This document shows, piece by piece, positions 1 to 31,001 of a stretch of 64,000 nucleotides of DNA (its first letter is position 1; each line of letters starts with the position of its first letter). The stretch covers positions 1 to 64,000 of the IMG/VR virus record IMGVR_UViG_3300042914_003164. One strand, 5' to 3'. The DNA comes from a virus. The notes beneath the pieces are model-generated. The model was not told the DNA's origin, ran no database searches, and saw only the letters and a list, made by a program, of their open reading frames with translations. Made by a program: the position numbers and the translations under genes.

Positions 1-45
1 ATCGCGCAAGAACTAAGTTTCTTTCTTAATCATTCGATCCGAGAG

Positions 46-288
46 ATGGAAGACCTGAAGCAGAGAGGCTGTATTACAGACAGGCTCTATGGACATTATT
101 GCTGGTTTTGGTTGTGGTCTGCTCACAGGCACGACTTTAGACATGAAACCCTATACAACAAACGCGGTGGCGAGTTTTACTGGCGCCGAATCAATAGGGT
201 GCAGCGCCTAGTCGAGAAGATTGGAGCCTTCAGGATGGAGTTTGACAGGAAAGACGTTCCCTTTGGACTTGGCACTTTGAACCCATGA
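46..288 (+). CDS. Hypothetical protein, 80 aa
   Basis: Small basic, aromatic-rich reading frame (many Trp, Tyr, Arg) with no domain I recognise. It is kept because its stop overlaps the start of the next gene as ATGA at 285-288, the coupling used throughout this stretch. Other frames here are broken by stops. The start could also lie further in, and the frame could be spurious. Confidence 0.4.
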   Translation: MEDLKQRGCITDRLYGHYCWFWLWSAHRHDFRHETLYNKRGGEFYWRRINRVQRLVEKIGAFRMEFDRKDVPFGLGTLNP

Positions 289-455
289 AAGACTGGAAAC
301 CCGCAAGCAAGATAGACCTTGCAGCCTTGGAGGACAGACTTCCACCCTCCAAGAAGCTTGTTACAGCTTGGATACCTGGAGTTGGTGCAGTTTACAAGGT
401 AGTTCATACAGGCCACAAGCGCAACTTTAGACGTAAACCACCCGTTGTTTATTGA
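285..455 (+). CDS. Hypothetical small protein, 56 aa
   Basis: Short frame starting in an ATGA overlap with the preceding gene and ending one base before the next start (TGACATG at 453-459). The product is basic, with a Lys/Arg-rich C-terminal third ending in PPVVY. No family is recognised. The tight packing on both sides is the main support. Confidence 0.55.
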   Translation: MKDWKPASKIDLAALEDRLPPSKKLVTAWIPGVGAVYKVVHTGHKRNFRRKPPVVY

Positions 456-456
456 C

Positions 457-615
457 ATGCCATCAACTTACGACGTTGTGAGATTGGATGACGAAGGCTG
501 CTGGCAAACCCTGTTGTCAAACGTTGACTACAACAAAGCAGACATGGAAGTTGATCGCTACACCGATCAGTTTCCTAGCGCATGTATTGACATTCTACCC
601 CACAAAGGCAAATGA
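457..615 (+). CDS. Hypothetical small acidic protein, 52 aa
   Basis: Starts one base after the previous stop and ends in an ATGA overlap with the gene at 612. The product is acidic and soluble (MPSTYDVVRLDDEGCW at the start). No domain is recognised. Coupling to both neighbours suggests one transcript with translational coupling. Confidence 0.55.
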   Translation: MPSTYDVVRLDDEGCWQTLLSNVDYNKADMEVDRYTDQFPSACIDILPHKGK

Positions 616-1088
616 CTACCAAGACTCAACAGGTTGAACTTTACGTCTTTGACCCCAAGCCTGTGACTCAACACAGCATAGGCATTTACACACAGATGAA
701 ACCTTCTGTAGGCAACCCAGAGGTTTATGTCTGCGTCTACACAGGTCAGACTCTGGAGGCTCTGGTCTCGGAAGGGGAAGTCTCGCCAGAGGCGTTCCTG
801 TGCCCCTTGGAGGAGGCTGCAGCCAAGAGTCGAGACCTTGCCCGCCAGAGGCTGTGCAAGGGACCTCAGAGGGTCACGCGGGAACGCTGGTGGGAGCTAC
901 TTGAAGTGCTGTTCCCTGCACGTTGGGAGAACACACCTGAAGGTGAAATCTTCATGGTGCCGGAATGTATCACGGGCTGTCTTTACACTTTTGGAGTTCG
1001 CATCGGTGAAGATTACTTCTCGATCACCGAAGACTGCGACATTGAAGCTGCAAAGCTGATTGCTATGTGTAAGGAGGCCATGTCGTGA
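612..1088 (+). CDS. Hypothetical protein, 158 aa
   Basis: Soluble protein with an alpha/beta-looking first half and a central Arg/Lys-rich helix followed by a Trp pair (RWWELLEVLF, near residues 92-101). Several Cys are spread through it without a clear metal-binding spacing. It overlaps both neighbours (ATGA at its start, GTGA at its end). The family is unknown; coding potential is good because competing frames give much shorter or low-complexity products. Confidence 0.75.
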   Translation: MTTKTQQVELYVFDPKPVTQHSIGIYTQMKPSVGNPEVYVCVYTGQTLEALVSEGEVSPEAFLCPLEEAAAKSRDLARQRLCKGPQRVTRERWWELLEVLFPARWENTPEGEIFMVPECITGCLYTFGVRIGEDYFSITEDCDIEAAKLIAMCKEAMS

Positions 1089-1267
1089 TACTTACTTTCA
1101 ATCCAATTAACTGTTCTTGGGAGGTTTCAGACATTGTAGGCTCAGTGCGTGTAAGCAAGACCTACTATGGCTACACGAAAGATGAAGTAATTGAAGACTT
1201 CAGAGCCTTCATTAGATATACAGAAGACCCAAGTTACGAGCCTGAAGACATTACGGTAAACAGATGA
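1085..1267 (+). CDS. Hypothetical protein, 60 aa, GTG start
   Basis: Starts with GTG inside a GTGA overlap and ends in an ATGA overlap with the gene at 1264. It is a small acidic protein with several Tyr residues (KTYYGYTKDEVIEDFRAF in the middle). No family is recognised. The double overlap is the best evidence that it is translated. Confidence 0.65.
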   Translation: MILTFNPINCSWEVSDIVGSVRVSKTYYGYTKDEVIEDFRAFIRYTEDPSYEPEDITVNR

Positions 1268-1638
1268 AACGTATCGACTTAGGTTCAGTGGAGTCTGCAG
1301 ATTCGTTCTGCAAGATGCTTGATCTTCAAGGGGTTGATTCACGTATCAAGTCTTCATCCCAAAGACTTGTTAATCGGATCAACGAGGATCTTGGCTGGAA
1401 CATCAAAGGCAAGGGTTCACAGGTCTTTGCTTTTTACTTGCATCTTCTAGCCAAGAACTTTGTTTCTTTCTGCTTGACAAGTGACGATGGGCTTAAGTCA
1501 GGTTACAAGCTGTGTGTTGAAAGCTGCTATCGAAACATTAAAGATAGTCAGCTGTTCATTGAACATGCTCACTTAATCGAACTTCCAAGCTGGATCCCTA
1601 AGTCACCTTCATTTATTCAACGACATGGAAACCGCTAG
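1264..1638 (+). CDS. Hypothetical protein, 124 aa
   Basis: Begins in an ATGA overlap. Mixed helical protein, basic, with a hydrophobic aromatic patch in the centre (FAFYLHLLAKNFVSF, about residues 55-69) too short and too charged at its flanks to be a clear membrane span. It overlaps the next gene by 14 bases. No recognised family. Confidence 0.7.
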   Translation: MKRIDLGSVESADSFCKMLDLQGVDSRIKSSSQRLVNRINEDLGWNIKGKGSQVFAFYLHLLAKNFVSFCLTSDDGLKSGYKLCVESCYRNIKDSQLFIEHAHLIELPSWIPKSPSFIQRHGNR

Positions 1639-1900
1639 AGATTACCTCCGAGACCTTGCACGTTCAACTCAGGACTTTACAACCAAGTGGATCATAGATG
1701 GGATCTTCTGGGCTGATGAATCGTGCCGCATAAGCGGAACCATGAGTCTTGCACTGCGTAACGCAGATGCTGCAGCTGGCAGGAGGTTGCTTGATCACTT
1801 GCTGGTTAGCGGTGTTGATACGCAGGCTGAAGTTCCCAGGTTCCTGAATAGATACTCTTCTACTTGCTTGAACCTTCTATCTCCTGTCGAGCAAGTCTGA
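1625..1900 (+). CDS. Hypothetical protein, 91 aa
   Basis: Helical, with an N-terminal acidic/basic helix and an Ala/Arg-rich middle (ALRNADAAAGRRLLDHLL). It starts inside the preceding gene (14-base overlap) and is followed by a 77-base gap rich in heptamer words such as CTGCACT and CTACACT. Function unknown. Confidence 0.65.
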   Translation: METARDYLRDLARSTQDFTTKWIIDGIFWADESCRISGTMSLALRNADAAAGRRLLDHLLVSGVDTQAEVPRFLNRYSSTCLNLLSPVEQV

Positions 1901-1977
1901 TCTCTGCACTTTGCCATCTTGACAGATGGTTTCCTGCAGGGCTTATTCAACCCTGTTAAACTCTACACTTCAGGTAA

Positions 1978-2448
1978 ATGGTTTCAATCTCTGGCGTCAC
2001 AAGCGATCCCGCAGACCTTACAGTTGTCAGCACGGATGGCTCTCACTTTGGAGCATCAAGCGCATACCTTGTTGACCTGACAAGTGCAACTAAATACAAG
2101 GTAGACGAGTTCGTGAAAGGGACGGACTCTGAACGTCGTGATTTTGCACACTCACACGGAGTTCGGTTGCTGGATATTCTCTCCGGCGAGGAAGCACCTT
2201 TTGTCAGCCAGGCTGTGCTTTACAAGTTTGACGGCGAAAGCTTCTTCGATGAAGATGAAGCGCACCCAGGCTACACTTACGCACTTCCAAGTTTTACTGG
2301 CAGATTCTGGGTGTGTGATTGCTGGATTGTAAACGAGCAAGGCGAGAGGCACCCGGATTACGACGTTGCACCTGTGCCTCTGACAGCTTGCAACCTTGAG
2401 CCTGTAGGTGACAACCCGTGGATCGCAAGTGTGCTGAATCAGGACTGA
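1978..2448 (+). CDS. Hypothetical protein, 156 aa
   Basis: Acidic soluble protein with a Thr/Ser-rich N-terminus and a Trp/Cys patch (FWVCDCWIVNEQGERHPDYD, about residues 110-129). The Cys pair alone is not a zinc site. The start is preceded by CACTTCAGGTAA without a real Shine-Dalgarno sequence. No family is recognised. Confidence 0.7.
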   Translation: MVSISGVTSDPADLTVVSTDGSHFGASSAYLVDLTSATKYKVDEFVKGTDSERRDFAHSHGVRLLDILSGEEAPFVSQAVLYKFDGESFFDEDEAHPGYTYALPSFTGRFWVCDCWIVNEQGERHPDYDVAPVPLTACNLEPVGDNPWIASVLNQD

Positions 2449-2597
2449 TAGCTGTAGCTGAATAGCTCAGACTTTGTAGGTTGCGGTAGGGCTGAGTTTG
2501 TGGGCTCGGCCCGCCTAACCCTGTAGGAAGCCAGCGGACTTTGCGGTTAAGCATTCCTTATGTTATGGGATCTGGGCTACTTTGTAGCGGGATTGTG

Positions 2598-2606
2598 TGC
2601 TATAAT
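2598..2606 (+). promoter_or_regulatory. Extended -10 promoter (TGC-TATAAT)
   Basis: A perfect TATAAT at 2601-2606 is preceded by TGC, giving the TGnTATAAT extended -10 form that can work without a good -35. The matching -35 position (2578-2583, TACTTT) is weak. It lies in a 227-base gap and would start a transcript about 60 bases before the gene at 2676. Confidence 0.5.
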
Positions 2607-2675
2607 TTGGGAGCTGGGGAAGTTGTAGGCTTGCCTGCCCCCAGACTTTACACTCTACACTTTACACTTGCTGCT

Positions 2676-2984
2676 ATGACAAGCGACACCTTCTACGCTC
2701 ATGCTTGCAGGATTGTTGAGAACTTCAACTTCCTCAAGGTTCAAAAGATGATGGCTGCAGTTGATTGGAACTGGGGCGGACCTTACATGAATGGAGAGTT
2801 TGGACCTCCCACTGTTGACGCTATGAAGTCCAATGCAATGCACTTACTACTTCAAGCCAAGACGCTGGACACTAACACTTCGGCTGGTGGCTTCCAAGCC
2901 TATTGGGTGAGACAGGGAGACGTTGCAGGTTACAAGGGCAACGGCTACATCGGACTTCGGTTCATTGGAGCTGAGACTTACTGA
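2676..2984 (+). CDS. Hypothetical protein, 102 aa
   Basis: The ATG at 2676 is chosen over an upstream in-frame start because the upstream part runs through the heptamer-rich leader. The product has a helical N-terminus and a Gly/Trp-rich second half (DWNWGGPYMNGEFGPPT). The start is preceded by repeated CTACACT/TTACACT words and no Shine-Dalgarno sequence. Family unknown. Confidence 0.65.
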   Translation: MTSDTFYAHACRIVENFNFLKVQKMMAAVDWNWGGPYMNGEFGPPTVDAMKSNAMHLLLQAKTLDTNTSAGGFQAYWVRQGDVAGYKGNGYIGLRFIGAETY

Positions 2985-3033
2985 GTTCATAGTCTGTAGT
3001 TCACTATCGACACCAACCCTGCACTTTACAGCA

Positions 3034-3666
3034 ATGAGCGACCTAGTTTACCTCAAAGACCTGCCAGGCTACATCAAGCCGGAACAACCGGCTGCACCTT
3101 GCAAGCCACAGCCCAAGCCTCTCTGTGAGGCACTTGCAACAGCAGAGGTTCCAGTTGAGCCGCTGCTACCTTGCACCAAATGCAAGGGAGATGGATACCT
3201 GTTCAGCGAAGGCTACAGGTACACACGAGATGATGGAACACTGAGAGTTTACGAGTCAGAGTGGAAACCCTGCATGTACTGCGATGGAGTTGGCTGGTTC
3301 CACGCACCAGACCTTGCAAGTTTGGTGAAAGCGGTTAATGGCCGCAAACCCCGTACCCTGCGGTCAAAGAGACCAGATGATACACGCGCCTACTTTGTAT
3401 GGCGTATGGCAAGGTTCCACGGTGGAAAGGATGTCTGCTTGCCGATGGCTGCAAGTTGCGACATTGCAGGTGATCCCTACGAGAACGTACTTGACCAGTT
3501 GGCAACCATCATTGCCAAAGCCTATTTCGGTAGTGGCAACGTTGGAGTTGCAAGATGGCAGCAAGCGATATATGGAAGTCACAGCTTCAAGGATGTACCT
3601 GCTGTCATTGATGGTCCTGTTTACGACAGTGACAAGCCTTTAGAAGAGATGTTGGAGGCTGTCTGA
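3034..3666 (+). CDS. DnaJ-like zinc-finger protein, 210 aa
   Basis: Two CxxCxGxG-type motifs, CTKCKGDGY and CMYCDGVGW, lie about 30 residues apart near residues 47-86. This is the spacing and sequence of DnaJ-type zinc fingers, which bind one zinc and often bind proteins or nucleic acids. No J domain is present. The N-terminus is Pro-rich; the C-terminal 100 residues are of unknown type. The ATG at 3034 is preferred to an upstream start because the latter would overlap the preceding gene by about 60 bases. Role unknown; a small RNA- or protein-binding factor is one possibility. Confidence 0.7.
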   Translation: MSDLVYLKDLPGYIKPEQPAAPCKPQPKPLCEALATAEVPVEPLLPCTKCKGDGYLFSEGYRYTRDDGTLRVYESEWKPCMYCDGVGWFHAPDLASLVKAVNGRKPRTLRSKRPDDTRAYFVWRMARFHGGKDVCLPMAASCDIAGDPYENVLDQLATIIAKAYFGSGNVGVARWQQAIYGSHSFKDVPAVIDGPVYDSDKPLEEMLEAV

Positions 3667-3673
3667 TCTAGGA

Positions 3674-3731
3674 TTGTAGTTTGCAAGAGTACCGGAAACT
3701 TGCGGCACTTTACACTCAGTTTTTTATTGCT
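3674..3731 (+). promoter_or_regulatory. 5' leader with conserved hairpin, copy 1
   Basis: The leader of the gene at 3732. It holds a stem GCAAG/CTTGC (3683-3687 and 3699-3703) closing an 11-nt loop AGTACCGGAAA, then CACTCAG, a run of six T and ATTGCTATG. The leader at 4093-4149 has the same layout and the same loop with compensatory stem changes, so the pair looks like an RNA element under selection. Confidence 0.6.
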
Positions 3732-4085
3732 ATGACTTTCCGAGTTTACGCCAACAAAGGCTTCCAGATTGTACTGCCAAACGGCTACGAGATAAGCTGC
3801 ATGTTCGGATTTCTAAACTACTGTCAACACCGCAATGATGATAGTTTGGTGCAAGGCTGCATCACTACAAACTGTGGCGAGCTGAAGTCTAAAGACTGCG
3901 AGATTGCAGTTTACGACCCGAATGGTTACAGCGTCGGAGGCTGGCCAGGCTGCTCTGCCATTGAGGGTGTTGCAGGTTGGCAGTCTGTAGATAACTTGTT
4001 GAACGTTATTGATTACGTTCGCAACCTTACGCCGCCCCGCTCAGAAGTTGTTGACACTGAAGACTACTGTGAAGAGCATTACTGA
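3732..4085 (+). CDS. Hypothetical Cys-rich protein, 117 aa
   Basis: The ATG follows the T-run and ATTGCT of the conserved leader and is identical in context to the start at 4150, which supports it. The product is beta-rich with seven Cys spread along it (for example ISCMFGFLNYC and CITTNCGELKSKDC), possibly a metal-binding or disulfide fold. No family is recognised. Confidence 0.7.
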   Translation: MTFRVYANKGFQIVLPNGYEISCMFGFLNYCQHRNDDSLVQGCITTNCGELKSKDCEIAVYDPNGYSVGGWPGCSAIEGVAGWQSVDNLLNVIDYVRNLTPPRSEVVDTEDYCEEHY

Positions 4086-4092
4086 CCAGAGT

Positions 4093-4149
4093 TTGTAGTT
4101 TACAGGAGTACCGGAAACCTGTAACATCCTGCACTCAGTTTTTATTGCT
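4093..4149 (+). promoter_or_regulatory. 5' leader with conserved hairpin, copy 2
   Basis: The leader of the gene at 4150. Its stem is TACAGG/CCTGTA (4101-4106 and 4118-4123), six pairs around the same loop AGTACCGGAAA as copy 1, followed by CACTCAG, a T-run and ATTGCTATG. Compared with 3674-3731 the stem bases differ but pairing is kept, while the loop does not change. Confidence 0.6.
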
Positions 4150-4554
4150 ATGACTACGAACACAAAGGCTAAGAGCTTAACACTGAAAATTCCAAGCGGA
4201 TTCTATGCAGTTCCGATCACGGAAGATCAATGGAGGCAGTTCATGGGTTCGGAACTTGAGGATCGTCATTGCAAGATGGAGGCCGTAGGTTATTGGTCGG
4301 TTCCCGTAAAGTACACAGCAATCGCTGTTTCCTACACTTGGAAGAATAACTTTATGGACACGATCACCTTGTATGGTGAACGCACAATGTCCAGCTTGAA
4401 ACGGTGCGGCTACGACATGGAAGGCAGAGTTTTCGTTGACGGAAAGAAGTTCAGAGGTTTTACTTCTTCTCAGTTGTTTGAACTTCCTGATGGTAGATTG
4501 CTTGACGTTGCGGTGATACACGTTTGCGCTAAAGAGCCTGAAGTTACTTTTTGA
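4150..4554 (+). CDS. Hypothetical protein, 134 aa
   Basis: Beta-rich soluble protein starting LTLKIPSGFYAVPITEDQW and rich in Tyr/Trp. No motif points to a function. It shares its leader type, but no clear protein similarity, with the gene at 3732, so the shared element is probably regulatory and not left over from a gene duplication. Confidence 0.7.
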   Translation: MTTNTKAKSLTLKIPSGFYAVPITEDQWRQFMGSELEDRHCKMEAVGYWSVPVKYTAIAVSYTWKNNFMDTITLYGERTMSSLKRCGYDMEGRVFVDGKKFRGFTSSQLFELPDGRLLDVAVIHVCAKEPEVTF

Positions 4555-4557
4555 ATT

Positions 4558-4767
4558 ATGGCAGCTTTACCTCAAGTCGAGCAACTCTCTAGCTTCAGAA
4601 AGATACTCTTTGCAGGTCAAAGGGTCACAGTTGAGAGGACGCAGCGCAGTGTTACAGGTTACTGCGTTGTAGGTTGGGAGAGTGGTCTACCTGTTGCAGC
4701 TAGGCCGATTACAGCTCAGAAGATAAAGGCTTTACTTAAAGCTTACCCAAACCACACTTTGATCTGA
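4558..4767 (+). CDS. Hypothetical protein, 69 aa
   Basis: Starts three bases after the previous stop and ends one base before the next start (TGACATG). Small basic beta/alpha protein (VTVERTQRSVTGYCVVGWES in the middle). Unknown family; tight spacing supports translation as part of the same message. Confidence 0.65.
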   Translation: MAALPQVEQLSSFRKILFAGQRVTVERTQRSVTGYCVVGWESGLPVAARPITAQKIKALLKAYPNHTLI

Positions 4768-4768
4768 C

Positions 4769-5107
4769 ATGACTATCACTATCGAAAAAAAGTTCGAGCC
4801 TTCCGACCGCTACAGGTTTGACTGTGGACTCCCACGCCACTTTGCACAGATTGACACTTGCCAAGATGCAAGTTACTACGGTAACTGGGCAAGTGCTGAA
4901 GCTCTGACTTTGATAAGTTACTGCGAGGGAGACGTGACTACAACAGTCTGCACAACAAAGGAGGAGTTTGCGGCTGAAGTCAACAAGCTCAAGGACTTCT
5001 CTAACCGTATGGATTACACCTTCAAGGGAATAGATCCAGGTTTTCATCACACAGACGAGATCCTGCAACCTTGGAGAGATTGCGGTCTAGCACACCTTAT
5101 TCACTGA
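4769..5107 (+). CDS. Hypothetical protein, 112 aa
   Basis: Acidic soluble protein with five Cys and several aromatic residues (RYRFDCGLPRHFAQIDTC near the N-terminus). A His/Asp-rich stretch FHHTDE lies near the C-terminus. No family is recognised. The next gene begins five bases after the stop. Confidence 0.7.
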   Translation: MTITIEKKFEPSDRYRFDCGLPRHFAQIDTCQDASYYGNWASAEALTLISYCEGDVTTTVCTTKEEFAAEVNKLKDFSNRMDYTFKGIDPGFHHTDEILQPWRDCGLAHLIH

Positions 5108-5112
5108 ACCCA

Positions 5113-5391
5113 ATGGACAGCACCTTCATGCCTGGAACTACTAATTTGCAGCAGGCTAATCGTAAGTGGTTGCTTGCACAGAACATTAAGGCTGCAGTTG
5201 ACATTCCAGATGGTTGCAGGAGGTTTTACATGCTAAACCCAAGGGAAAAGAGTTTGGAGGTTTGTAGGTCACATGGCGCAGATCATTGCGCCTACGAATG
5301 GGGACCACAGATTGACCCTAGATGGAATCCCAAGCAGATTGAAGCTTACATCTCTGGATACTGTAACATCGCTCTTGACTCCAATGTTTAA
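5113..5391 (+). CDS. Hypothetical protein, 92 aa
   Basis: The ATG at 5113 is preferred because an earlier in-frame start would overlap the previous gene by 37 bases. Soluble protein with CRSHGADHCAYEW in the middle; two Cys and two His within 13 residues could bind a metal, but this is only a spacing argument. It overlaps the next gene by eight bases. Confidence 0.65.
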   Translation: MDSTFMPGTTNLQQANRKWLLAQNIKAAVDIPDGCRRFYMLNPREKSLEVCRSHGADHCAYEWGPQIDPRWNPKQIEAYISGYCNIALDSNV

Positions 5392-5704
5392 GCTCTACTA
5401 CTTTGTTGATTACAAGACGGATGAAGGCGAGCCGGAACCTTATACGGTTGCCTTTGACATCGTTGAAGGTGATGCCCGACACATTGAAGATTATGTTTAC
5501 GAGGGAAGTTTCTTAACTTTGTTGGATGCACAGGATAGGATGAATAATCGAGGTAGTCGATGGTTCTTTTATCCTAATGCTTGTATTACAGAGGTTGTAG
5601 GTGACAAGGAGGTACTTGTTGGTATCTATCTTCAAAGTGGTGTTAATTACGAGTTATCACCTGAGGAGTACGAAGCTTTGAGGGAGGAAGCTGTATGTTG
5701 TTAG
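5384..5704 (+). CDS. Hypothetical acidic protein, 106 aa; last gene of the train
   Basis: Starts inside the previous gene at CCAATG. Strongly acidic, rich in Tyr and Phe, ending EALREEAVCC. Followed by heptamer words (TTGTAGA, TTAAAGT, TTGCACT) and an intrinsic terminator, so it is probably the last gene of the transcript running from the left edge. No family is recognised. Confidence 0.7.
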   Translation: MFKLYYFVDYKTDEGEPEPYTVAFDIVEGDARHIEDYVYEGSFLTLLDAQDRMNNRGSRWFFYPNACITEVVGDKEVLVGIYLQSGVNYELSPEEYEALREEAVCC

Positions 5705-5737
5705 TTTGACTTTGTAGATTAAAGTTTGCACTGTATT

Positions 5738-5765
5738 GGCCGGTGTTAATTCACTGGCCTTTTTT
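5738..5765 (+). terminator. Intrinsic terminator
   Basis: Stem GGCCGGTG / CACTGGCC (one G-T wobble) around a TTAATT loop, followed by six T. It closes the small-gene train. Confidence 0.8.
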
Positions 5766-5819
5766 ATTGCCTGTTGTAGGTCGATGTTTGTGTGTTAGAG
5801 TTAGGAGGCAATTGATCGG

Positions 5820-6668
5820 TTGTTGACCGTGCCAGAAGGGAATCAGGAGCTTCAAGGCAGTGACTTTGAAGGTGATGACTTTGAAAATAATGCCGCAGAC
5901 CTTGAAGATTCTATCGCAGATATTGAGTCTTTATTGACTGATGATCTCGGCATTGATGATGGTACTTTAGATGGTATTGATGAAAGTTTGAACCTTAATG
6001 AGTATGGAGAGATTGAAGACGAATTTGTAGTAGACACTAACGATGATAATACTGTAGATGTTAATAGTTCTAATCTTGAAGATCAAACCCCTACATTCCA
6101 AAGCACCAATATCTCACACCCTGCAAACCCAACCCAAAACCCCTCTACCTCTTCACTTGTTAAAACGTGGTCTAAAAGATCGAAACTTGCACCTAATGAG
6201 ACGGATAAAGAATTTGAGATGTTCAAAGTTTACTGTATGTATGGAAGTGGTCGTTCTCACCAATATGTATCCCAGATTACAAACTTTGGACTCAGCACAA
6301 TAAAGATTATAGCACAGCGGAACCAGTGGAGCCGTAGGTCAGGGGACTATGACAGATGGCAGCTTACCCGTAAGATAAAGGAAGCGCAAACTTCCAGGCA
6401 CGAGGAGCACATTAAGAAGCTGGAAGTTTACAGGGAGGAACAGGAAGCACTAGGGAAGCAGCTAACGTTAAACGCTGCACGTATAGCATTCTTAGCAAAC
6501 TCTACACTTGCAAAGATGCTAGACGAGGAGAAGACTCTTGACATGAGGGATGTTCCTGGTATCTTGAATACAGCAGCAAAGCTTGCAGAAGTAGGTAAGA
6601 ACTTGCAAGGTACTGCACTGGGAGTTGATCAGTTGTTAAGTGCTATAGAAGAGTCAGAGGTTGACTGA
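5820..6668 (+). CDS. Terminase small subunit-like HTH protein, 282 aa
   Basis: The first ~100 residues are very acidic (Asp/Glu/Asn) and probably disordered. Residues about 125-185 look like the DNA-binding part of phage terminase small subunits: a helix-turn-helix (YGSGRSHQYVSQI...STIKIIAQRNQW) followed by the RR-x2-DYDRW signature, then a long charged helix. The TTG at 5820 is used because AGGAGG at 5803-5808 is a fair ribosome site. The oddity is distance: the large subunit is 27 kb away, next to another HTH protein (33711). An alternative is a different HTH protein of the same fold. Confidence 0.5.
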   Translation: MLTVPEGNQELQGSDFEGDDFENNAADLEDSIADIESLLTDDLGIDDGTLDGIDESLNLNEYGEIEDEFVVDTNDDNTVDVNSSNLEDQTPTFQSTNISHPANPTQNPSTSSLVKTWSKRSKLAPNETDKEFEMFKVYCMYGSGRSHQYVSQITNFGLSTIKIIAQRNQWSRRSGDYDRWQLTRKIKEAQTSRHEEHIKKLEVYREEQEALGKQLTLNAARIAFLANSTLAKMLDEEKTLDMRDVPGILNTAAKLAEVGKNLQGTALGVDQLLSAIEESEVD

Positions 6669-6814
6669 AGAGGCTGCGCCCACTTCTAACAGCCCGAAGC
6701 CCACACATAGAACCGCTTACGCGGGATAGATTAAATCGGGTTTGTACTGACTGAGGGTTTGCGGGAAGGCACTTCGTTGTTGTAGTTTGCAGGTTGTAAG
6801 GGTTTTTCAGTGGT

Positions 6815-6835
6815 CAGCCTAACGGCTGTTTTATT
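6815..6835 (+). terminator. Weak intrinsic terminator
   Basis: Stem CAGCC/GGCTG with a TAAC loop, followed by TTTTATTT. Short stem, so moderate strength. It lies about 145 bases after the HTH gene, in a gap that also carries heptamer words (TTGTAGT, TTGCAGG). Confidence 0.5.
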
Positions 6836-6854
6836 TATAGGTTACATCTAGTAC

Positions 6855-6956
6855 ATGGATACTTCACACCTCGCAGACTGGACCCGGATTTTCGGTTTTT
6901 GGCTGTTTATTTCCGTACTTACATATATTATTAGGTATAAATGGGGACAAGGCTAG
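6855..6956 (+). CDS. Single-span membrane peptide, 33 aa
   Basis: A 33-residue frame with a polar N-terminus (MDTSHLADWTR), one hydrophobic stretch of about 17 residues (IFGFWLFISVLTYIIRY) and a short basic tail. Such peptides occur in phages as holin-like or superinfection factors, but nothing here fixes a role. There is no Shine-Dalgarno sequence, like other genes in the area. Confidence 0.4.
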   Translation: MDTSHLADWTRIFGFWLFISVLTYIIRYKWGQG

Positions 6957-7056
6957 GTAGCTTGCGCCGCAGTGCTTCTACTTTATGATCTCATAACGGA
7001 CACGTTGTATTCATCAAGGCTATGACTGCGATCTCGAAATGTAACAGAAAATAACA

Positions 7057-7094
7057 GGGTAGTTTCTACCCACCCAATCGGGTAGTTTCAACCC
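7057..7094. promoter_or_regulatory. Two tandem palindromes, probable operator
   Basis: GGGTAGTTTCTACCC (7057-7071, perfect 6-bp arms) is repeated 23 bp later as GGGTAGTTTCAACCC (7080-7094, one mismatch). They end 19 bases before the start of a winged-helix protein. A protein binding its own upstream repeats (autorepression or initiator binding) is the simple reading. Confidence 0.55.
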
Positions 7095-7113
7095 CCCACC
7101 TCAGAGGCTGCTT

Positions 7114-7599
7114 TTGACACCTTCAATCAAGCCACTTCACACCCTGATCGCCTCAGACATGCCAGGTTCACACCTGAAAATCATGTTCTTACTCGTTGAT
7201 ATGTGCAATGATTGGGGCTTTACAACAGAGTCTTATGGTTCACTATCAGAAGTATTTAACTTAAACAAGGACAACCTACGCAAGAGGGTAAACACACTTA
7301 TCAAACAAGATATGCTGAAGATCGTAAGCTACAACGGCAGGAAAGGTTTGATGGTTAATCCCATATACTGCAACGATAAACCTTTGCATCTTAAAGAATT
7401 TAGAGAAGCGCTCTGGGAGAAAGAGCTAATACTTACACGTTACAAGCCTAGACACTTCTATGGACCTCCATTCATGGAAACCCAGGAGCTAGCATTTGCA
7501 GCAGTCAAGAGATCGTACAATGGATCCAAACACCCCAAAGAAAGAACAAGACGAATTATTTGCAGGTCTTTGGAGGCAGCAAAAACACGTCAGAGTTAA
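7114..7599 (+). CDS. Winged-helix protein, possible replication initiator, 161 aa
   Basis: Residues about 15-85 read as a winged helix: KIMFLLVDMCNDWGF, then a recognition-helix region (SLSEVFNLNKDNLRKRVNTL) and a wing (MLKIVSYNGRKGLMVNP). This arrangement is common in plasmid and phage replication initiators and in repressors. The C-terminus is basic. The start is TTG at 7114, with ATG at 7159 as an alternative. Two palindromes lie just upstream; a CCATTCATG repeat lies inside the gene (7468-7476) and more follow it. That setting favours a replication or autoregulatory role; the exact family is not recognised. Confidence 0.6.
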   Translation: MTPSIKPLHTLIASDMPGSHLKIMFLLVDMCNDWGFTTESYGSLSEVFNLNKDNLRKRVNTLIKQDMLKIVSYNGRKGLMVNPIYCNDKPLHLKEFREALWEKELILTRYKPRHFYGPPFMETQELAFAAVKRSYNGSKHPKERTRRIICRSLEAAKTRQS

Positions 7600-7780
7600 A
7601 TACTTCAAACTTAAAGAGGACAGTGGAGATATTGCATCTAGGGATCAAGCATTCAGGGAGATGAACAATTTCTTCATTCATGAAGTAGATTACAGTTTCA
7701 GCCCTGAGACTTCAATCGTTGACAGATCACTTCCTAAAGGTTCAATCCTTGATGCCATACGCAAAAGTTGTAAAGATTAG
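7520..7780 (+). CDS. Hypothetical protein, 86 aa
   Basis: The ATG at 7520 is chosen; the gene overlaps the previous one by 80 bases in another frame. Hydrophilic, helical, basic N-terminal half (FAGLWRQQKHVRVKYFKLKE). It ends immediately before the CCATTCATG cluster, and one partial copy (7675-7682) lies inside it. It may be a partner of the upstream winged-helix protein. No family is recognised. Confidence 0.6.
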   Translation: MDPNTPKKEQDELFAGLWRQQKHVRVKYFKLKEDSGDIASRDQAFREMNNFFIHEVDYSFSPETSIVDRSLPKGSILDAIRKSCKD

Positions 7781-7921
7781 CCATTCATGCCTGACACTAA
7801 AGGATGCCGCGGCCATTCATGATACACATTCAACCTTGAAAGCTGCATTCATGAAAACGCCATTCATGACATGACACCAGGAGAACGCCATTCATGATAG
7901 GATGCAGATTAGCCATTCATG
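7781..7921 (+). repeat. CCATTCATG iteron-like cluster
   Basis: The 9-mer CCATTCATG occurs at 7781, 7813, 7860, 7888 and 7913, with a one-mismatch copy GCATTCATG at 7845. Spacings are 32, 32, 15, 28 and 25 bp. Another full copy is at 7468 and a partial one at 7675. All are in the same orientation. Short direct repeats next to an initiator-like gene resemble origin iterons; the uneven spacing is unlike most iteron arrays. Confidence 0.6.
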
Positions 7922-7929
7922 ATGACACC

Positions 7930-8153
7930 TTAGACGTTGCACCTTAAAGATTACAGTTTAGACATTCAACCTTAGACTTTGCACTTTATACGTTACAGCT
8001 TAGAGGCTATACATTAAAGGCTGTACCTTGAACCTTGCACTTTGCACCTTATACATTAAAGCTTGCACCTTATACATTAAAGGCTGCACTTTGTACTTTG
8101 TACTTTATAGGCTAGACTTTATAGGTTAAAGCTTGTAGGTTCAAGTTTATAGT
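7930..8153 (+). repeat. 32-unit in-register degenerate heptamer array
   Basis: These 224 bases divide exactly into 32 units of 7 bp. Every unit fits Y-T-V-N-A-S-N: position 2 is always T, position 5 always A, position 6 always C or G, while positions 4 and 7 vary freely. Typical units are TTGCACC, TTATACA, TTAAAGG and CTGCACT. No stop-free frame of useful length crosses it, so it is not a coding repeat. Confidence 0.85.
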
Positions 8154-8165
8154 TCACTATCCCGC
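8148..8165 (+). repeat. 18-bp direct repeat, copy 1
   Basis: TATAGTTCACTATCCCGC, identical to 8344-8361. It marks the end of the 32-unit heptamer array. A 12-bp core TAGTTCACTATC also occurs at 2997-3008, just after a gene. Confidence 0.8.
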
Positions 8166-8168
8166 ACG

Positions 8169-8280
8169 TTATACTTTGCAGGTTGCGCTTTGCAGTATGT
8201 AGCTCACACTATGTAGCGTCTAGTCTGAGGTTCAGGCTTTACACTTTATGGGCTGCAGGTTGCAGGCTACAGGCTAACCT
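8169..8280 (+). repeat. Second heptamer array, more degenerate, about 16 units
   Basis: After a 15-base break the 7-bp register resumes (TTATACT, TTGCAGG, ... CTGCAGG, TTGCAGG, CTACAGG). Several central units deviate from the consensus (ATGTAGC, TCACACT, GTCTAGT). From 8281 to 8640 single words remain (TTTATAG, CTGCAG) without steady register; I see no gene in that stretch. Confidence 0.65.
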
Positions 8281-8343
8281 TAAGGACCAGACTTTATAGT
8301 AAGCAAGTTATACTCCAAGGCCTGCAGATCGCAGGCTGTAAAC

Positions 8344-8361
8344 TATAGTTCACTATCCCGC
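8344..8361 (+). repeat. 18-bp direct repeat, copy 2
   Basis: TATAGTTCACTATCCCGC, identical to 8148-8165. Both copies follow heptamer words and may be boundary or binding sites. Confidence 0.8.
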
Positions 8362-8582
8362 CAGGTATAACTTAATAGGAGAGAATCAGACTTTATAGGT
8401 TCCTGCCTGCACTGACAGACTAGGTGCAGGCTTCTGTAGGTTTGCTGCCGGTAGTTTGGAGCCTGCCGGCTAACCTTAAAGGCTGGAGAATGCGCGAGCT
8501 TAGGTGATGCCAACCGCTCACACTTTGTAGGTTTGGCGGTGATAAAGCGTAGGCTTGGGTTTGCGACACTTTGCTAATTATC

Positions 8583-8638
8583 GTAGATTCTGGCCGCAGC
8601 AGCTGAGACTTTATAGGTTAACTGTCTGCAGAATCTAC
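8583..8638. repeat. 10-bp perfect inverted repeat
   Basis: GTAGATTCTG (8583-8592) and CAGAATCTAC (8629-8638) are perfect inverted copies 36 bases apart. They stand at the right edge of the heptamer-rich DNA, just left of a gene of different composition, so they could be a hairpin, an operator or a recombination end. Confidence 0.6.
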
Positions 8639-8780
8639 AATTGATCAAACCTTGAATGTTACGGTTCCGTAACAATTGGGCGGATTTGGGCTGATAGGTT
8701 GCCAGTTGGCCGACTTTGCGCTTAAGATACTTTCAAGCGATCGGACCCAAACCTTTAAACCGACCGCCCCCCCTAGGATC

Positions 8781-9419
8781 ATGACAAGCGCCAACCAAAA
8801 GCCCGCACCTAACCAAAAGGGCGGACCCGTCAAGATTGGACAAGCAGATGTTGAACTGCTGGCGTCCGGTGATTTTGCCGCCGCGCTTGCTGCCGCAGTG
8901 TGGGAGCCTCCTGCCCGTGACAAGGCCAGCAAGGGCAGCGGAGACGGCAAGCGCGCTGCGATGCCGATCCTATGGCCAGAGGCCATCAGGACCGCTGCTA
9001 ACGCCCTACAGCCCCCCATGGAACTGCCAGACCAATTCCCGAGCGGTAAGGCCAAGATGCCCGGACAATTGGCGTCGTTCCCCAGCAAGGAAGCGATCAT
9101 AAATGGTTGCCTTGATCGCCCAATTCCGGCCAAGTTGGAGAAACGAACAGACGTGCAACTAGCGCTATTGCTTGACGTTGCACATGGTAAGTACGGGGCC
9201 TTCCGTTTTCCTGCCATGTCTGAGGGTTTCAGACTTCCGCTTGCAAACTTGCTGGAGATCCTGAAGCGCCACCCCAGAACATATAAAGAGAATGTAGCGA
9301 TGCAAAAGCTGCACAACTCCGGCGCAACTTGCCTTATGGCTAAGATCGCAAAAGTTACCGGGCGGATTGTTGCCATGGATCCCGACTTCCAACTTTATCT
9401 GATAGACACTGAATCCTGA
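8781..9419 (+). CDS. Hypothetical protein, 212 aa, compositional island
   Basis: The ATG at 8781 is chosen (TAGGA just upstream); an in-frame extension back to 8676 is possible. The N-terminal third is Ala/Lys/Gly/Pro-rich and probably flexible; the rest is helical, with LALLLDVAHGKYGAFRFP and LANLLEILKRHPRTYKENVAMQKL, and may bind nucleic acid. No family is recognised. GC is higher than its neighbours, heptamer words are absent inside it, and heptamer arrays lie on both sides, so it looks like an insertion. The reverse-strand frame is Ser/Ala-biased and taken as a shadow. Confidence 0.7.
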   Translation: MTSANQKPAPNQKGGPVKIGQADVELLASGDFAAALAAAVWEPPARDKASKGSGDGKRAAMPILWPEAIRTAANALQPPMELPDQFPSGKAKMPGQLASFPSKEAIINGCLDRPIPAKLEKRTDVQLALLLDVAHGKYGAFRFPAMSEGFRLPLANLLEILKRHPRTYKENVAMQKLHNSGATCLMAKIAKVTGRIVAMDPDFQLYLIDTES

Positions 9420-9505: not shown

Positions 9506-9534
9506 AGGCTAGGCTTTATCGCCTGGCCTTTTTT
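9506..9534 (+). terminator. Intrinsic terminator
   Basis: Nine-bp stem AGGCTAGGC / GCCTGGCCT (one wobble), TTTATC loop, then six T. It ends the island gene's transcript. Confidence 0.8.
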
Positions 9535-9540
9535 GTGTCT

Positions 9541-9624
9541 TTATACTTTATACTTTACAGGCTACACTTTACAGGTAATAAGCTACACCTGGGGGCCTAT
9601 ACTTTGCAGGTTATATGTTATGGG
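9541..9624 (+). repeat. Heptamer array right of the island gene, 12 units
   Basis: Twelve units of 7 bp in register, starting TTATACT, TTATACT, TTACAGG, CTACACT, with three deviating units (TAATAAG, TGGGGGC, TTATATG). Same strand orientation as the left arrays. From 9625 to 9817 no gene is seen, only T-rich and G/C-rich simple tracts. Confidence 0.7.
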
Positions 9625-11284: not shown

Positions 11285-12505
11285 TCACCCTTTTACGCAT
11301 AGCACCTGCCTAAGGGTGTGTCGAATTTCCACGAGGTCGTCTTGCGCGGCCATCACGGAATCAATGTCTTTATAGGCAGCGGGAGTTTCATCAATAACCC
11401 CTTCGTCCTTTCTGCATTCCACGCCTGCCGTGGCGGCAATGTGATCCTCTACGGTAAACCTGCGCTTCGCCTCTCTCCGGCCCATCACGCGACCAGCGCC
11501 GTGAGAGCAGGAGCAGAACGATTCGCGGTTGCCTTTACCGGCAACGATGAAGCTTTTGGCGCCCATGCTGCCGGGAATGATCCCTAGCTGACCCTTCCTA
11601 GCGGAGACGGCACCCTTGCGGGTCAGCATCACTTCAGCGCCAAAATGACACTCGCGAGCCACATAGTTGTGATGACAGTTTACAGCTTCGCAATCGCAAT
11701 GAAATGGCTTGGGAACGGCTTTTTTTAAGGCCGTGATGGCCGCCTGCATCATCAGGTAGCGATTTAGCCTGGCATAGTCCTGTGCCCAGTCAACGGCTTC
11801 AACGTAATCATCAAACAGCTCGCTTCCTTCTGCCAGGTAGGCAAGGTCGCGGTCGGGCAAGTTGATGAAGTGCCGCTCCATTTCCTTGCGGGCGCGATCA
11901 ATAAAATAGGTGCCAATGCGGTTGCCGATACCACGGCTACCCGAGTGCAGCATCACCCAGACGCGCTGATCTTCGTCAAGGCAGACCTCAACAAAGTGGT
12001 TGCCTCCGCCCAGCGTGCCGGCATGGATCGCGGCGCGGTTAGCGGCTTTTCCGATGGGTGCGTGCTTGGCAACAATGTCGCTCAGGCGCGGCTGGAGCAA
12101 AGCCACAGCGTCAAGAGCATAAGCCGGCGGATCCTTGTGGGCGCCCTGATCACCGGGTCCCCCGTCATTAGTCCTGCCATGGGGGATGGCCGCCTCGATT
12201 GCGCTGCGCAATGGTCCCAGGTCGTCAGGCAGGTCGTCAGCGGTCAGTGTTGTGCGCTGAGCGCTCATGCCACATCCAATGTCAACGCCAACCGCAGCAG
12301 GGATAATTGCACCCTTTGTGGCGATCACCGAGCCAATGGTGGCGCCCATCCCCCAGTGGACATCGGGCATGGCTGCAACGTGGTGGTGAATGAATGGCAG
12401 CTCGGCCAGATTGCGAAGTTGCTGCAGCGCCTTGTCCTCAACGGGAACACCTTGAACCCATGCCTTGATGGGGGCTCCAGACGTGGGAAAAAACAGTGGA
12501 TCCAT
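11285..12505 (-). CDS. rtcB: RtcB-type RNA ligase, 406 aa
   Basis: RtcB joins RNA ends bearing a 2',3'-cyclic phosphate or 3'-phosphate to 5'-OH ends, using GTP and manganese, and repairs or splices tRNA. All hallmark motifs are visible: GVDIGCGM (Asp75, Cys78), GGGNHF (Asn169, His170), HSGSRG (His187), the HH pair near 278-279, IPGSMG near 310-315, and SHGAGR with the guanylylated His at 335. Length matches bacterial RtcB (about 408 residues), so it should be active. There is no archease or RtcR next to it. In a phage it may repair tRNAs cut by host defence nucleases; that is inference. Confidence 0.93.
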   Translation of the reverse strand: MDPLFFPTSGAPIKAWVQGVPVEDKALQQLRNLAELPFIHHHVAAMPDVHWGMGATIGSVIATKGAIIPAAVGVDIGCGMSAQRTTLTADDLPDDLGPLRSAIEAAIPHGRTNDGGPGDQGAHKDPPAYALDAVALLQPRLSDIVAKHAPIGKAANRAAIHAGTLGGGNHFVEVCLDEDQRVWVMLHSGSRGIGNRIGTYFIDRARKEMERHFINLPDRDLAYLAEGSELFDDYVEAVDWAQDYARLNRYLMMQAAITALKKAVPKPFHCDCEAVNCHHNYVARECHFGAEVMLTRKGAVSARKGQLGIIPGSMGAKSFIVAGKGNRESFCSCSHGAGRVMGRREAKRRFTVEDHIAATAGVECRKDEGVIDETPAAYKDIDSVMAAQDDLVEIRHTLRQVLCVKG

Positions 12506-28335: not shown

Positions 28336-28605
28336 ATGAAAGACAGCCCGCCCGCCTCAAGAGACAGGGCCGAAGTCATGTTTCTGTCTAGGTTTGCCTC
28401 CGGTGACAGCTGCCATGTCGAGCGAATTTGTAGCCGCGTGAACTTTGTTCTCAGCAAGCAGGGCGGCTCGGCTGAAGTCTTTTCAGCTCTTTGGAGTTTT
28501 GATCACTGGAATCCATTTTACTGGATTCCCCGTCCACCTGTTATTCCGTGCTCCCTTTTGCAACTTGTAGAGCGTCGTATGAAAGGTGTTATGCCATGGC
28601 AGTGA
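28336..28605 (+). CDS. Doubtful small frame before the glycosyltransferase, 89 aa
   Basis: An open frame ending ten bases inside the glycosyltransferase gene. The product is Cys/Ser/Trp-rich and unlike its neighbours, so it may be spurious. The region 28226-28335 holds no other gene with a good start, only a short open frame in another phase. Confidence 0.25.
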   Translation: MKDSPPASRDRAEVMFLSRFASGDSCHVERICSRVNFVLSKQGGSAEVFSALWSFDHWNPFYWIPRPPVIPCSLLQLVERRMKGVMPWQ

Positions 28606-31001
28606 AACCATACCGTTGCACAGTCATCTCCTGGGATGTTAATCACAACTGCTTGGGGCGAGCACATCTAATTGCCCAGACAGCTCAAAAGCTCTACTCA
28701 CATGTCGATCTTATTGGCTTTGGCTTTACTCATATTTCGGATACGGTGTGGCAGCCGCTCGGAGAGGCTTCTGTTACGTCACTGCCTGAGCCAAAAAACA
28801 CAGAAGATTTAATTCGCATTTGTAGTCGAGTATCAAGCAAAATACAGACCGACCTAGTTATCGCTTGCAAGGCTAGACTACCTTCTTTGCTGCTTGGCTA
28901 TTGCATCAAGCGCAAGACGGGCTCTCGCCTAATTGTTGACATTGATGACTACGAACCATCTTTTGTTGCAGGCGCTCCAGAGTCGAAACTTTTTAAGCGC
29001 ATGACAGCGCTTGAGCTACTGCAAGAGCTGCCGAAGCATATAGAAGAACCTCCGTACTCACCTTTTTGGACCGTGGTTGCACAGGAAGTGATTTCCTGCG
29101 CCGATGGAATTACTACTTGCGATACCCCATTGCAATCAATGTATGGAGGCGAGGTAATACCGCATTTGCGCGATCCAAATCTTTTTGCGGAACCCCCAAA
29201 GCCCCTGCCTAGTGAACTTGAGGAGGCTCGCAAGAAAAACGGTTCAATTGTAATGTTTCTTGGGACGCCGAATCGACACAAGGGAGTCGTTGAGATCGCA
29301 AAAGCCTGCCAACAAATTGAGGGAGTTGCCCCAGTTTATATTGGAACTATTGCCGACAGGGGAGTTGAGAATGATATTACAAGATCATGCCAAAAAGCTG
29401 TTTTAATAGAGAGCCTGTCTTTTGACCTAGTGCCGTCTTGCGTAAGGCAAGCTGATCTAGTGGTTTTGCTTCAAAACGTTAAATCTGTAGCAAGTGCCTA
29501 CCAGTTGCCAGCGAAAGCCTCTGATGCGTTGGCCGCTGGCGTTCAAATTGTAGCCTCGCGCACAGAACCTATGGCAATGCTTGTTGACATGGGTTTCAAG
29601 GGGATTACTCTGATTGAGTCCGCCGATGACTTAACCCCTGCAATCAAGGCGACAATTGGCAGCCCCTTAAGCAAGGCCGACAAAGAGTACAACCTTAAAC
29701 TTTTCGCTAAAACGCTTTCATTTGATGCTGGCGCGGAAACCATGAAAAAACTGTTGTTACCACCAGTTAAGCACAGCGTTAGTGGGATTCTGGATGCCCT
29801 GCTAAATTTCAAAAAAAATTCAAGAAAAAAGATTGTTGTCGTTTTCTGGAAACAAAACGACTTCGGCGTTTTTGGTCGAAGAGTCGATATGGTAGTAAAG
29901 TATCTAGCATCCAGAAGCGACATATCTCGTGTGATCGTCATCGAGAAACCTGTTTCAACTCTTGATCTTAAGCGCTACAAAAACAGTTCAAATTCTCATT
30001 TTAGGCTAATCTATAAATTTATCCAAAAAAAACGAGCCGGTCTATTAGATACTGACAAGATTTCGGTCTGGACCCCATTGATGCCACCTGGGCTGGACTT
30101 GGCTCAGCAAAAAGATTTTATACTAAAATACTGTAAGGATGCTTTGCAAGAGGCTCTTGTGGATTTGCCTGGCTCCTTCGTTGGTGCCTGGGTTTACCCT
30201 CATTTTCGTAATGCCGTCGAAATACTGGATAGTCTGCCTTTTGATCATGTCGTGGCTGACATCGTAGACGACCATAGAGCCTGGCCCGGCACAAGTGAAG
30301 AAAAGAAGAGGGAACTTACAGAGCAGTATGCGCAAGTCCTTGGAAAAAGTGATTGCAGTGTTTACAACTGCAAGCCTGCAATGAATTCCATTGGCAAGCT
30401 GTCAAGCAAGCCGACTCACCTTGTTCCGAATGGAGTTGATGTTGACCTTATCTATAAGGGTGGCCCTAAGGTAGAGGAGTTGAGGGAGTCCTTGGTTTCA
30501 CCGGGGAACTGGCGCTACATAATTGGTTATACCGGAAATCTCGAAAGTAAAATCAACTGGCCACTTGTCGAACACGTAGCCGACAAAAACAAAGATGCCT
30601 TGGTGCTAATGATTGGCAGCACTCACATGGCGGAAAATCTGCCACAAAGGCCAAACATTAAATACATTGGCCCCGTTTCCTACATGCACCTGAAGCTGTA
30701 TTTGCAGGTTTTCGATGTTGCCATTATACCACACATAACAAATGATCTAACAGAAAACATGAATCCTCTTAAGAGCTATGTTTATGCGACACTTGGTATT
30801 CCAATAGTGGCAACAAATTGTCCGAATATGCCGCAATTGCCGCAGATTCGCATGGTTGGCCAACATGCTAGATTCGCAAAGCATGTTAGATCGGCTATAG
30901 TAAAAGATCAAAATCTTTCCGCAGAGGAGATACATGCAATAATGAAGGCCCACTCCTGGGAAAGTAGACTCAAGGATCTTGCTGATTCATTCTACAAATA
31001 A
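28596..31001 (+). CDS. Tandem GT-B glycosyltransferase, 801 aa
   Basis: Two GT4-like halves in one chain. The first (1-400) begins with DVNHNCLGRAHLIAQ, has a MFLGTPNRHKGVVEIAKAC donor-domain start and PAKASDALAAGVQIVAS near residue 310. The second (from about 410) has VPNGVDVDL, IGYTGNLESKINWPLVE and NPLKSYVYATLGIPIVAT, the last two being the usual nucleotide-sugar donor-site regions. It should move sugars from activated donors to glycan, lipid or protein. The start is the ATG at 28596. DNA is more AT-rich than its surroundings with long A-runs, suggesting recent acquisition. Surface change of the host or virion glycosylation are both possible. Confidence 0.85.
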   Translation: MAVKPYRCTVISWDVNHNCLGRAHLIAQTAQKLYSHVDLIGFGFTHISDTVWQPLGEASVTSLPEPKNTEDLIRICSRVSSKIQTDLVIACKARLPSLLLGYCIKRKTGSRLIVDIDDYEPSFVAGAPESKLFKRMTALELLQELPKHIEEPPYSPFWTVVAQEVISCADGITTCDTPLQSMYGGEVIPHLRDPNLFAEPPKPLPSELEEARKKNGSIVMFLGTPNRHKGVVEIAKACQQIEGVAPVYIGTIADRGVENDITRSCQKAVLIESLSFDLVPSCVRQADLVVLLQNVKSVASAYQLPAKASDALAAGVQIVASRTEPMAMLVDMGFKGITLIESADDLTPAIKATIGSPLSKADKEYNLKLFAKTLSFDAGAETMKKLLLPPVKHSVSGILDALLNFKKNSRKKIVVVFWKQNDFGVFGRRVDMVVKYLASRSDISRVIVIEKPVSTLDLKRYKNSSNSHFRLIYKFIQKKRAGLLDTDKISVWTPLMPPGLDLAQQKDFILKYCKDALQEALVDLPGSFVGAWVYPHFRNAVEILDSLPFDHVVADIVDDHRAWPGTSEEKKRELTEQYAQVLGKSDCSVYNCKPAMNSIGKLSSKPTHLVPNGVDVDLIYKGGPKVEELRESLVSPGNWRYIIGYTGNLESKINWPLVEHVADKNKDALVLMIGSTHMAENLPQRPNIKYIGPVSYMHLKLYLQVFDVAIIPHITNDLTENMNPLKSYVYATLGIPIVATNCPNMPQLPQIRMVGQHARFAKHVRSAIVKDQNLSAEEIHAIMKAHSWESRLKDLADSFYK

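Follow-up and report, generated by a model that had tools for sequence, protein, structure and literature searches.

PeSL (promoter-early stem-loop) cassettes of T4-like phages were reportedly described by Arbiol in 2010 and Comeau in 2014. T4 also carries intercistronic CUUCGG hairpins, which have a stable UUCG tetraloop and lie between genes of polycistronic mRNAs. In integrons, a gene and the attC hairpin that trails it after the stop codon form an exchangeable cassette, the stem of attC being variable in sequence but obliged to pair. PeSLs are repeated intergenic stem-loop modules with promoter and terminator features (PMC4503421). The translational operator of gene 43 in T4 and RB69 is a leader hairpin ~40 nt before the start, with conserved loop bases that are read by a protein (PMC3014915). 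Rfam lists structured RNA motifs from marine and cyanophage mRNAs, among them manA, wcaG, and PhotoRC-II (PMC2864571).

The element described here is a hairpin module of ~31 nt, composed of GTTT and a 5-bp core stem enclosing the loop AGTNCYNGAAA. PeSLs appear to be the closest known idea to it. Both are small stem-loops repeated between genes where gene exchange is rapid and neighbors have been swapped (PMC4503421), and the new hairpin is likewise repeated between exchangeable genes of a variable region. However, by sequence criteria it lacks a promoter and a terminator-type U-run, it conserves the sequence of its loop and not of its stem, and its phages are a sipho-type, probably cyanobacterial group. 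Promoter-like matches in positions 1-9000 number 8, fewer than in shuffles (10.3), and one of them (4099-4127) falls inside hairpin B; a U-run directly past the stem occurs in no copy. The T4 CUUCGG hairpins share with it a constant loop on differing stems and an intergenic place in polycistronic mRNAs, but the new loop has 11 nt and is not a UUCG tetraloop. The gene 43 operator is likewise a phage hairpin with conserved loop bases, but it is a single site before one gene; a contig can carry as many as three of the new hairpins, and the genes next to them are unrelated. Like attC, it stands right after a stop codon, next to exchangeable genes, with a stem that varies and yet pairs; unlike attC, it is much shorter and its loop is conserved. 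An attC site has paired R and L boxes with GTT/AAC ends; in most copies of the new hairpin a GTT is paired to an AAC/AAT-like triplet further on, with no second box pair within the 31 nt, and no integron tyrosine recombinase was found among about 40 genome proteins scanned against PHROGs. With manA, wcaG, and PhotoRC-II it would share the nature of a cyanobacterial or cyanophage structured RNA, but none of the 4227 Rfam families matches it at the gathering score, nor up to an E value of 5.

The virus record is 109,690 bases long, and its first 64 kb form the window, the whole 64,000-nt stretch analyzed here. A terminase, a portal, a major head protein, and a 2677-aa peptidase M23-domain protein that is probably the tape measure point to a tailed phage. 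The closest relatives of the terminase are from Synechococcus siphoviruses (~40% identity), and the phage belongs to a sipho-type group that probably infects cyanobacteria. The phage also encodes a sigma factor, a DnaB-like helicase, a recombinase-like protein, an exonuclease, an HNH endonuclease, and a DprA-like protein. An RtcB-like RNA ligase gene (window 11285-12505, minus strand) and an 817-aa protein with two glycosyltransferase group 1 domains (window 28548-31001) are present as well.

The preliminary description of this DNA had reported two hairpins with identical loops and with stems that differ yet pair, and both were found again (Table 1). Each stem has 7 contiguous pairs, two of them G.U in hairpin A, and the loop AGTACCGGAAA, allowing up to one mismatch, occurs 3 times in the window against 0.69 expected. 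Minimum free energies of -5.1 (A) and -6.6 kcal/mol (B) are unexceptional compared to shuffles, so the evidence for the hairpin lies in comparison, not in stability. The same length and layout that had been noted for the two leaders are indeed seen but are largely due to the spacers, which look like a duplication (76% identity across 62 nt); for the same reason the T-run, CACTCAG, and ATTGCTATGAC are common to both. Inside this duplication, two stem pairs have changed in a matched way (G-C to A-U and A-U to G-C) with the loop constant. Of the features shared by the two spacers, related phages have just the hairpin and GCTATG, a common start context. The T-run is confined to the two window spacers and is not a property of the hairpin family, and ATTGCTATG is a common start context in these phages, with a hairpin or without.

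Table 1. Features of the two hairpin-bearing gene junctions in the window (SD, Shine-Dalgarno site)
Feature	Position	Strand	Remarks
Upstream gene MSDLVY...	3034..3666	+	function unassigned
Upstream TGA stop and 11-nt gap to hairpin A	3664..3677	+	gap 11-14 nt in most copies
Hairpin A	3678..3705	+	AGTTTGCAAG-AGTACCGGAAA-CTTGCGG; model R2 43.7 bits
Hairpin A parts		+	AGTTT lead-in (conserved); 5' arm TTGCAAG 3681-3687; loop AGTACCGGAAA 3688-3698; 3' arm CTTGCGG 3699-3705
SD-less stretch, hairpin A to ATG 3732	3706..3731	+	carries T-run
Small gene MTFRVY...	3732..4085	+	function unassigned
TGA stop of gene 3732-4085 and 11-nt gap to hairpin B	4083..4096	+	
Hairpin B	4097..4124	+	AGTTTACAGG-AGTACCGGAAA-CCTGTAA; model R2 45.8 bits
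Hairpin B parts		+	AGTTT lead-in; 5' arm TTACAGG 4100-4106; loop AGTACCGGAAA 4107-4117; 3' arm CCTGTAA 4118-4124
SD-less stretch, hairpin B to ATG 4150	4125..4149	+	
Downstream gene MTTNTK...	4150..4554	+	function unassigned

Sixteen distinct copies of the hairpin occur among seven related viral contigs, a small group: two in the window contig (G000), three each in G001, G003, G004, and G006, and one each in G007 and G008. The duplicate of G003 (G002) was left out of this count, and the relative G005 has no copy. Copies were gathered by pattern scans of viral contigs and by covariance model R1 run over whole records; because G006 and G008 were first reached via their proteins, their copies test the model independently. 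The preliminary description had proposed such a covariance-model search, naming as adverse outcomes a lack of further copies or loop changes with lost pairing; scans and model together returned 14 more copies in six related contigs, with pairing kept and neither adverse outcome. Model R2 scores the 16 copies at 38 to 50 bits and everything else in 511 kb, two isolates included, at no more than 16.9 bits, and the pattern read backwards as a control gives 0 matches versus 16. KBS-S-2A and S-H1, the isolates whose terminases are closest, have no copy, and among 84,980 prokaryote species there is none with convincing pairing. Scans of genome contigs gave first none and then 14 matches, none of which has all five core pairs; a Prevotellaceae contig (L119) reaches 25.8 bits with R1, with a mismatch inside the core stem. 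DNA similarity searches of sequenced phages yielded chance matches only.

The constancy of the loop and lead-in comes partly from the search design, and the copies found by covariance model (e.g., G001b, G004a, G006a-c, and G008a) retain the fixed letters of both. The core stem is extended by TT/AA, or by GTT/AAY across one bulged T; in 15 of the 16 copies, the latter register lets G2 pair as well, its partner being C or U. In the ungapped alignment of the 16 copies, 92% of the cells are paired versus 73.6% in shuffles, and double-change cells number 21 versus 6.1, distributed over five of the seven stem pairs. Since relatedness among copies survives shuffling, slid registers and decoys carry weight here. 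Pairing in slid registers reaches only 25 to 39%. Decoys came from pattern scans that required the fixed letters of the family but constrained few of the stem positions; those from other viral contigs and 14 prokaryote contigs form 1 to 4 of the 5 core pairs, versus all five in 13 of the 16 family copies and four in the other three, and these scans found pairing in this phage family only. Three orthologous sites behind one gene ('...TGWT') in G001, G003, and G004 carry three different, fully paired stems, GCGGA/TCCGC, GACAG/CTGTT, and GCAAG/CTTGC. Judged from these comparisons, the hairpin is a real structure with both pairing and loop under selection; its stems are short and weak. The original proposal that selection maintains this structure, with compensatory changes in the stems around an invariant loop, is borne out by matched changes across the 16 copies.

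Five other roles were considered and set aside. A selenocysteine or readthrough element does not fit gene 3732, which is out of frame with the preceding stop. The fourth loop base varies among A, G, and T, at odds with a bulged-G or 23S rRNA mimic, and a kissing loop through CCGG is broken by the variants CCCG, CCTG, and CCAG. The GGAG site of RegB is not conserved, and pairing between the loop and the beginning of the coding sequence is clear in hairpin A only.

The hairpin keeps a narrow range of distances to the genes on either side. An ORF ends 6 to 14 nt before AGTTT in 13 of 15 copies examined, 12 of these at 11 to 14 nt, and G008 has a TAA 17 nt ahead. In G001 and G007 the hairpin lacks a convincing upstream gene, and a GGAGG site with the two-codon ORF ATGCTCTGA places a TGA ~11 nt before the hairpin; such two-codon ORFs could be remnants of lost genes. 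Beside copy G004c, the tail of a gene that is otherwise lost persists. The next start usually follows after 18 to 35 nt, typically ~20 nt. The claim that the downstream starts lack Shine-Dalgarno sites is supported: none of 12 scored has one, compared to 18 of 73 overlapping or closely spaced genes. Spacers with a hairpin measure 57 to 78 nt, and two longer ones hold a promoter; spacers without it are often near 33 nt, with none between 57 and 73 nt. By spacer length, the hairpin is a ~31-nt insert at a near-fixed spot within an otherwise ~33-nt spacer. All copies have the coding orientation. From known ribosome footprints, this location would correspond to the gap between a terminating and an initiating ribosome.

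These phages also have a second hairpin type. It consists of GTGSTATNAT, a -10 promoter, followed in most cases 3 to 8 nt on by a stem such as CTGGGG/CCCCAG with a loop like ARGYTRYAGGCT. There are 12 matches, at window 2597-2644 and also in G001, G003, G004, G005, and G007, every one in an early region and on its coding strand, with stems that vary between copies. The GGAGG site with ATGCTCTGA follows a promoter and hairpin of this type (G001 oriented 18328, G007 oriented 16675). As a promoter with a 5' hairpin, this second module is nearer to PeSLs than the loop-conserved hairpin is. Long noncoding text at window 7927-8200 and 9530-9620 is made of degenerate heptads (A S N T T R N, e.g., ACTTTGC ACCTTAT ACATTAA), which also fill the short SD-less leaders of these phages; TAACTGA heptamer repeats that precede start codons (PMC4679880) may be compared. 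Another conserved noncoding element, TAGTTCACTATC(CCGC), lies at window 8144-8161, 8340-8357, and 2991-3008 and is found in L016 and related phages.

To which neighbor does the hairpin belong? With index copies excluded, 6 of 11 orthologues of upstream genes have the hairpin, compared to 3 of 24 orthologues of downstream genes (P = 0.015, for linkage families that are nonindependent and partly assigned by hand), suggestive of retention with the upstream more than with the downstream gene. Before G008 was added, the counts were 6/7 versus 2/19; a strict tie to the upstream gene is weakened by this later-found contig, whose upstream gene does not follow the trend, and the linkage is modest. The orthologue of gene 3034-3666 in G003 likewise has a hairpin 11 nt downstream, and in G006 the hairpin comes only beyond an extra small ORF (163 nt). 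All five orthologues of gene 4150-4554 in other contigs lack a preceding hairpin; protein searches of viral contigs returned no relatives of genes 3732 and 4150. Copy pairs are 293 to 693 bp apart in G001, G003, and G006, and genes bracketed by two copies occur in G000, G003, G004, and G006. Gene 3732-4085 has a hairpin on both sides in the window and in G004, with different outer neighbors in the two. The hairpin appears, from these arrangements, to mark places of small-gene swapping.

Another question is whether the hairpin acts in RNA or in DNA. The best reading, in which we place moderate confidence, is an intercistronic RNA hairpin, recognized by its loop, at gene junctions of the variable region, with the short repeats also aiding exchange. 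It would most likely fold in the mRNA, where a phage or host protein may recognize the loop and the stem would merely need to pair. It would fill the space separating the ribosome that finishes one small gene from the ribosome that starts the next; because it sits between the two, the junction is probably controlled or insulated, through re-initiation, processing, or decay of polycistronic early mRNA. Since its copies recur where genes turn over rapidly, the hairpin may also supply short homology through which phage recombination proteins swap adjoining genes. The main rival, possible but in our estimate somewhat unlikely, is a DNA-level site similar to attC or PeSLs, where an extruded or single-stranded hairpin would bound cassettes for recombination or processing and pairing would be selected for DNA folding. 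Consistent with this are the genes flanked by two copies in four contigs, including gene 3732-4085 in two phages with different surroundings, the hairpin unit left after gene loss in G004, and the recombinase-like protein, exonuclease, and DprA-like protein of the phage. Against it, the near-fixed stop and start gaps point to mRNA, the orientation is always coding, and no integrase or single-strand transposase was found among the proteins scanned, which represent part of the genome. The coding-strand tally falls on both sides: over all pairs, 13 G.U versus 3 A.C cells, a small count, mildly favor the mRNA strand, but in the core stem, with the invariant 5' columns removed, the tally drops to 2 versus 3, which leaves some probability to a hairpin in DNA.

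A bolder extension of the RNA reading, which we consider unlikely, is a gene-cassette system in which the loop-recognized 31-nt hairpin would serve small genes as an exchangeable end and link the termination of translation on one gene to initiation on its successor, a dedicated two-codon ORF supplying the terminating ribosome wherever no gene precedes. Also improbable is the original view of a 5' leader owned by the downstream gene, as a translational switch or repressor operator. The nearby SD-less ATG fits it, and the two-member downstream families MTFRVY and VKTIH retain the hairpin; however, most other downstream orthologues lack it, the downstream genes are mutually unrelated, and the position is bound to the upstream stop. 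An intrinsic transcription terminator or 3' end stabilizer for the upstream gene would explain a hairpin directly past stop codons that travels with that gene, but a weak 5- to 7-bp stem with an 11-nt loop and no U-run right after it makes this quite improbable; termination needs no conserved loop, and a terminator scan, which allows loops of 3 to 8 nt only, missed the hairpin. That one spacer was duplicated by chance and then drifted, with the structure unselected, would account for the similarity of the two window spacers and is contradicted by 16 copies with matched stem changes in 7 contigs, which leaves it a negligible probability.

The hairpin is a statistically solid structured element from uncultivated phages, absent from Rfam, and lies at sites of gain and loss of small genes that may serve host takeover. 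Action in mRNA would point to a new RNA-binding factor in cyanobacterial infection; action in DNA would make it a compact gene-exchange device. Either way, it can serve as an annotation marker for these phages.
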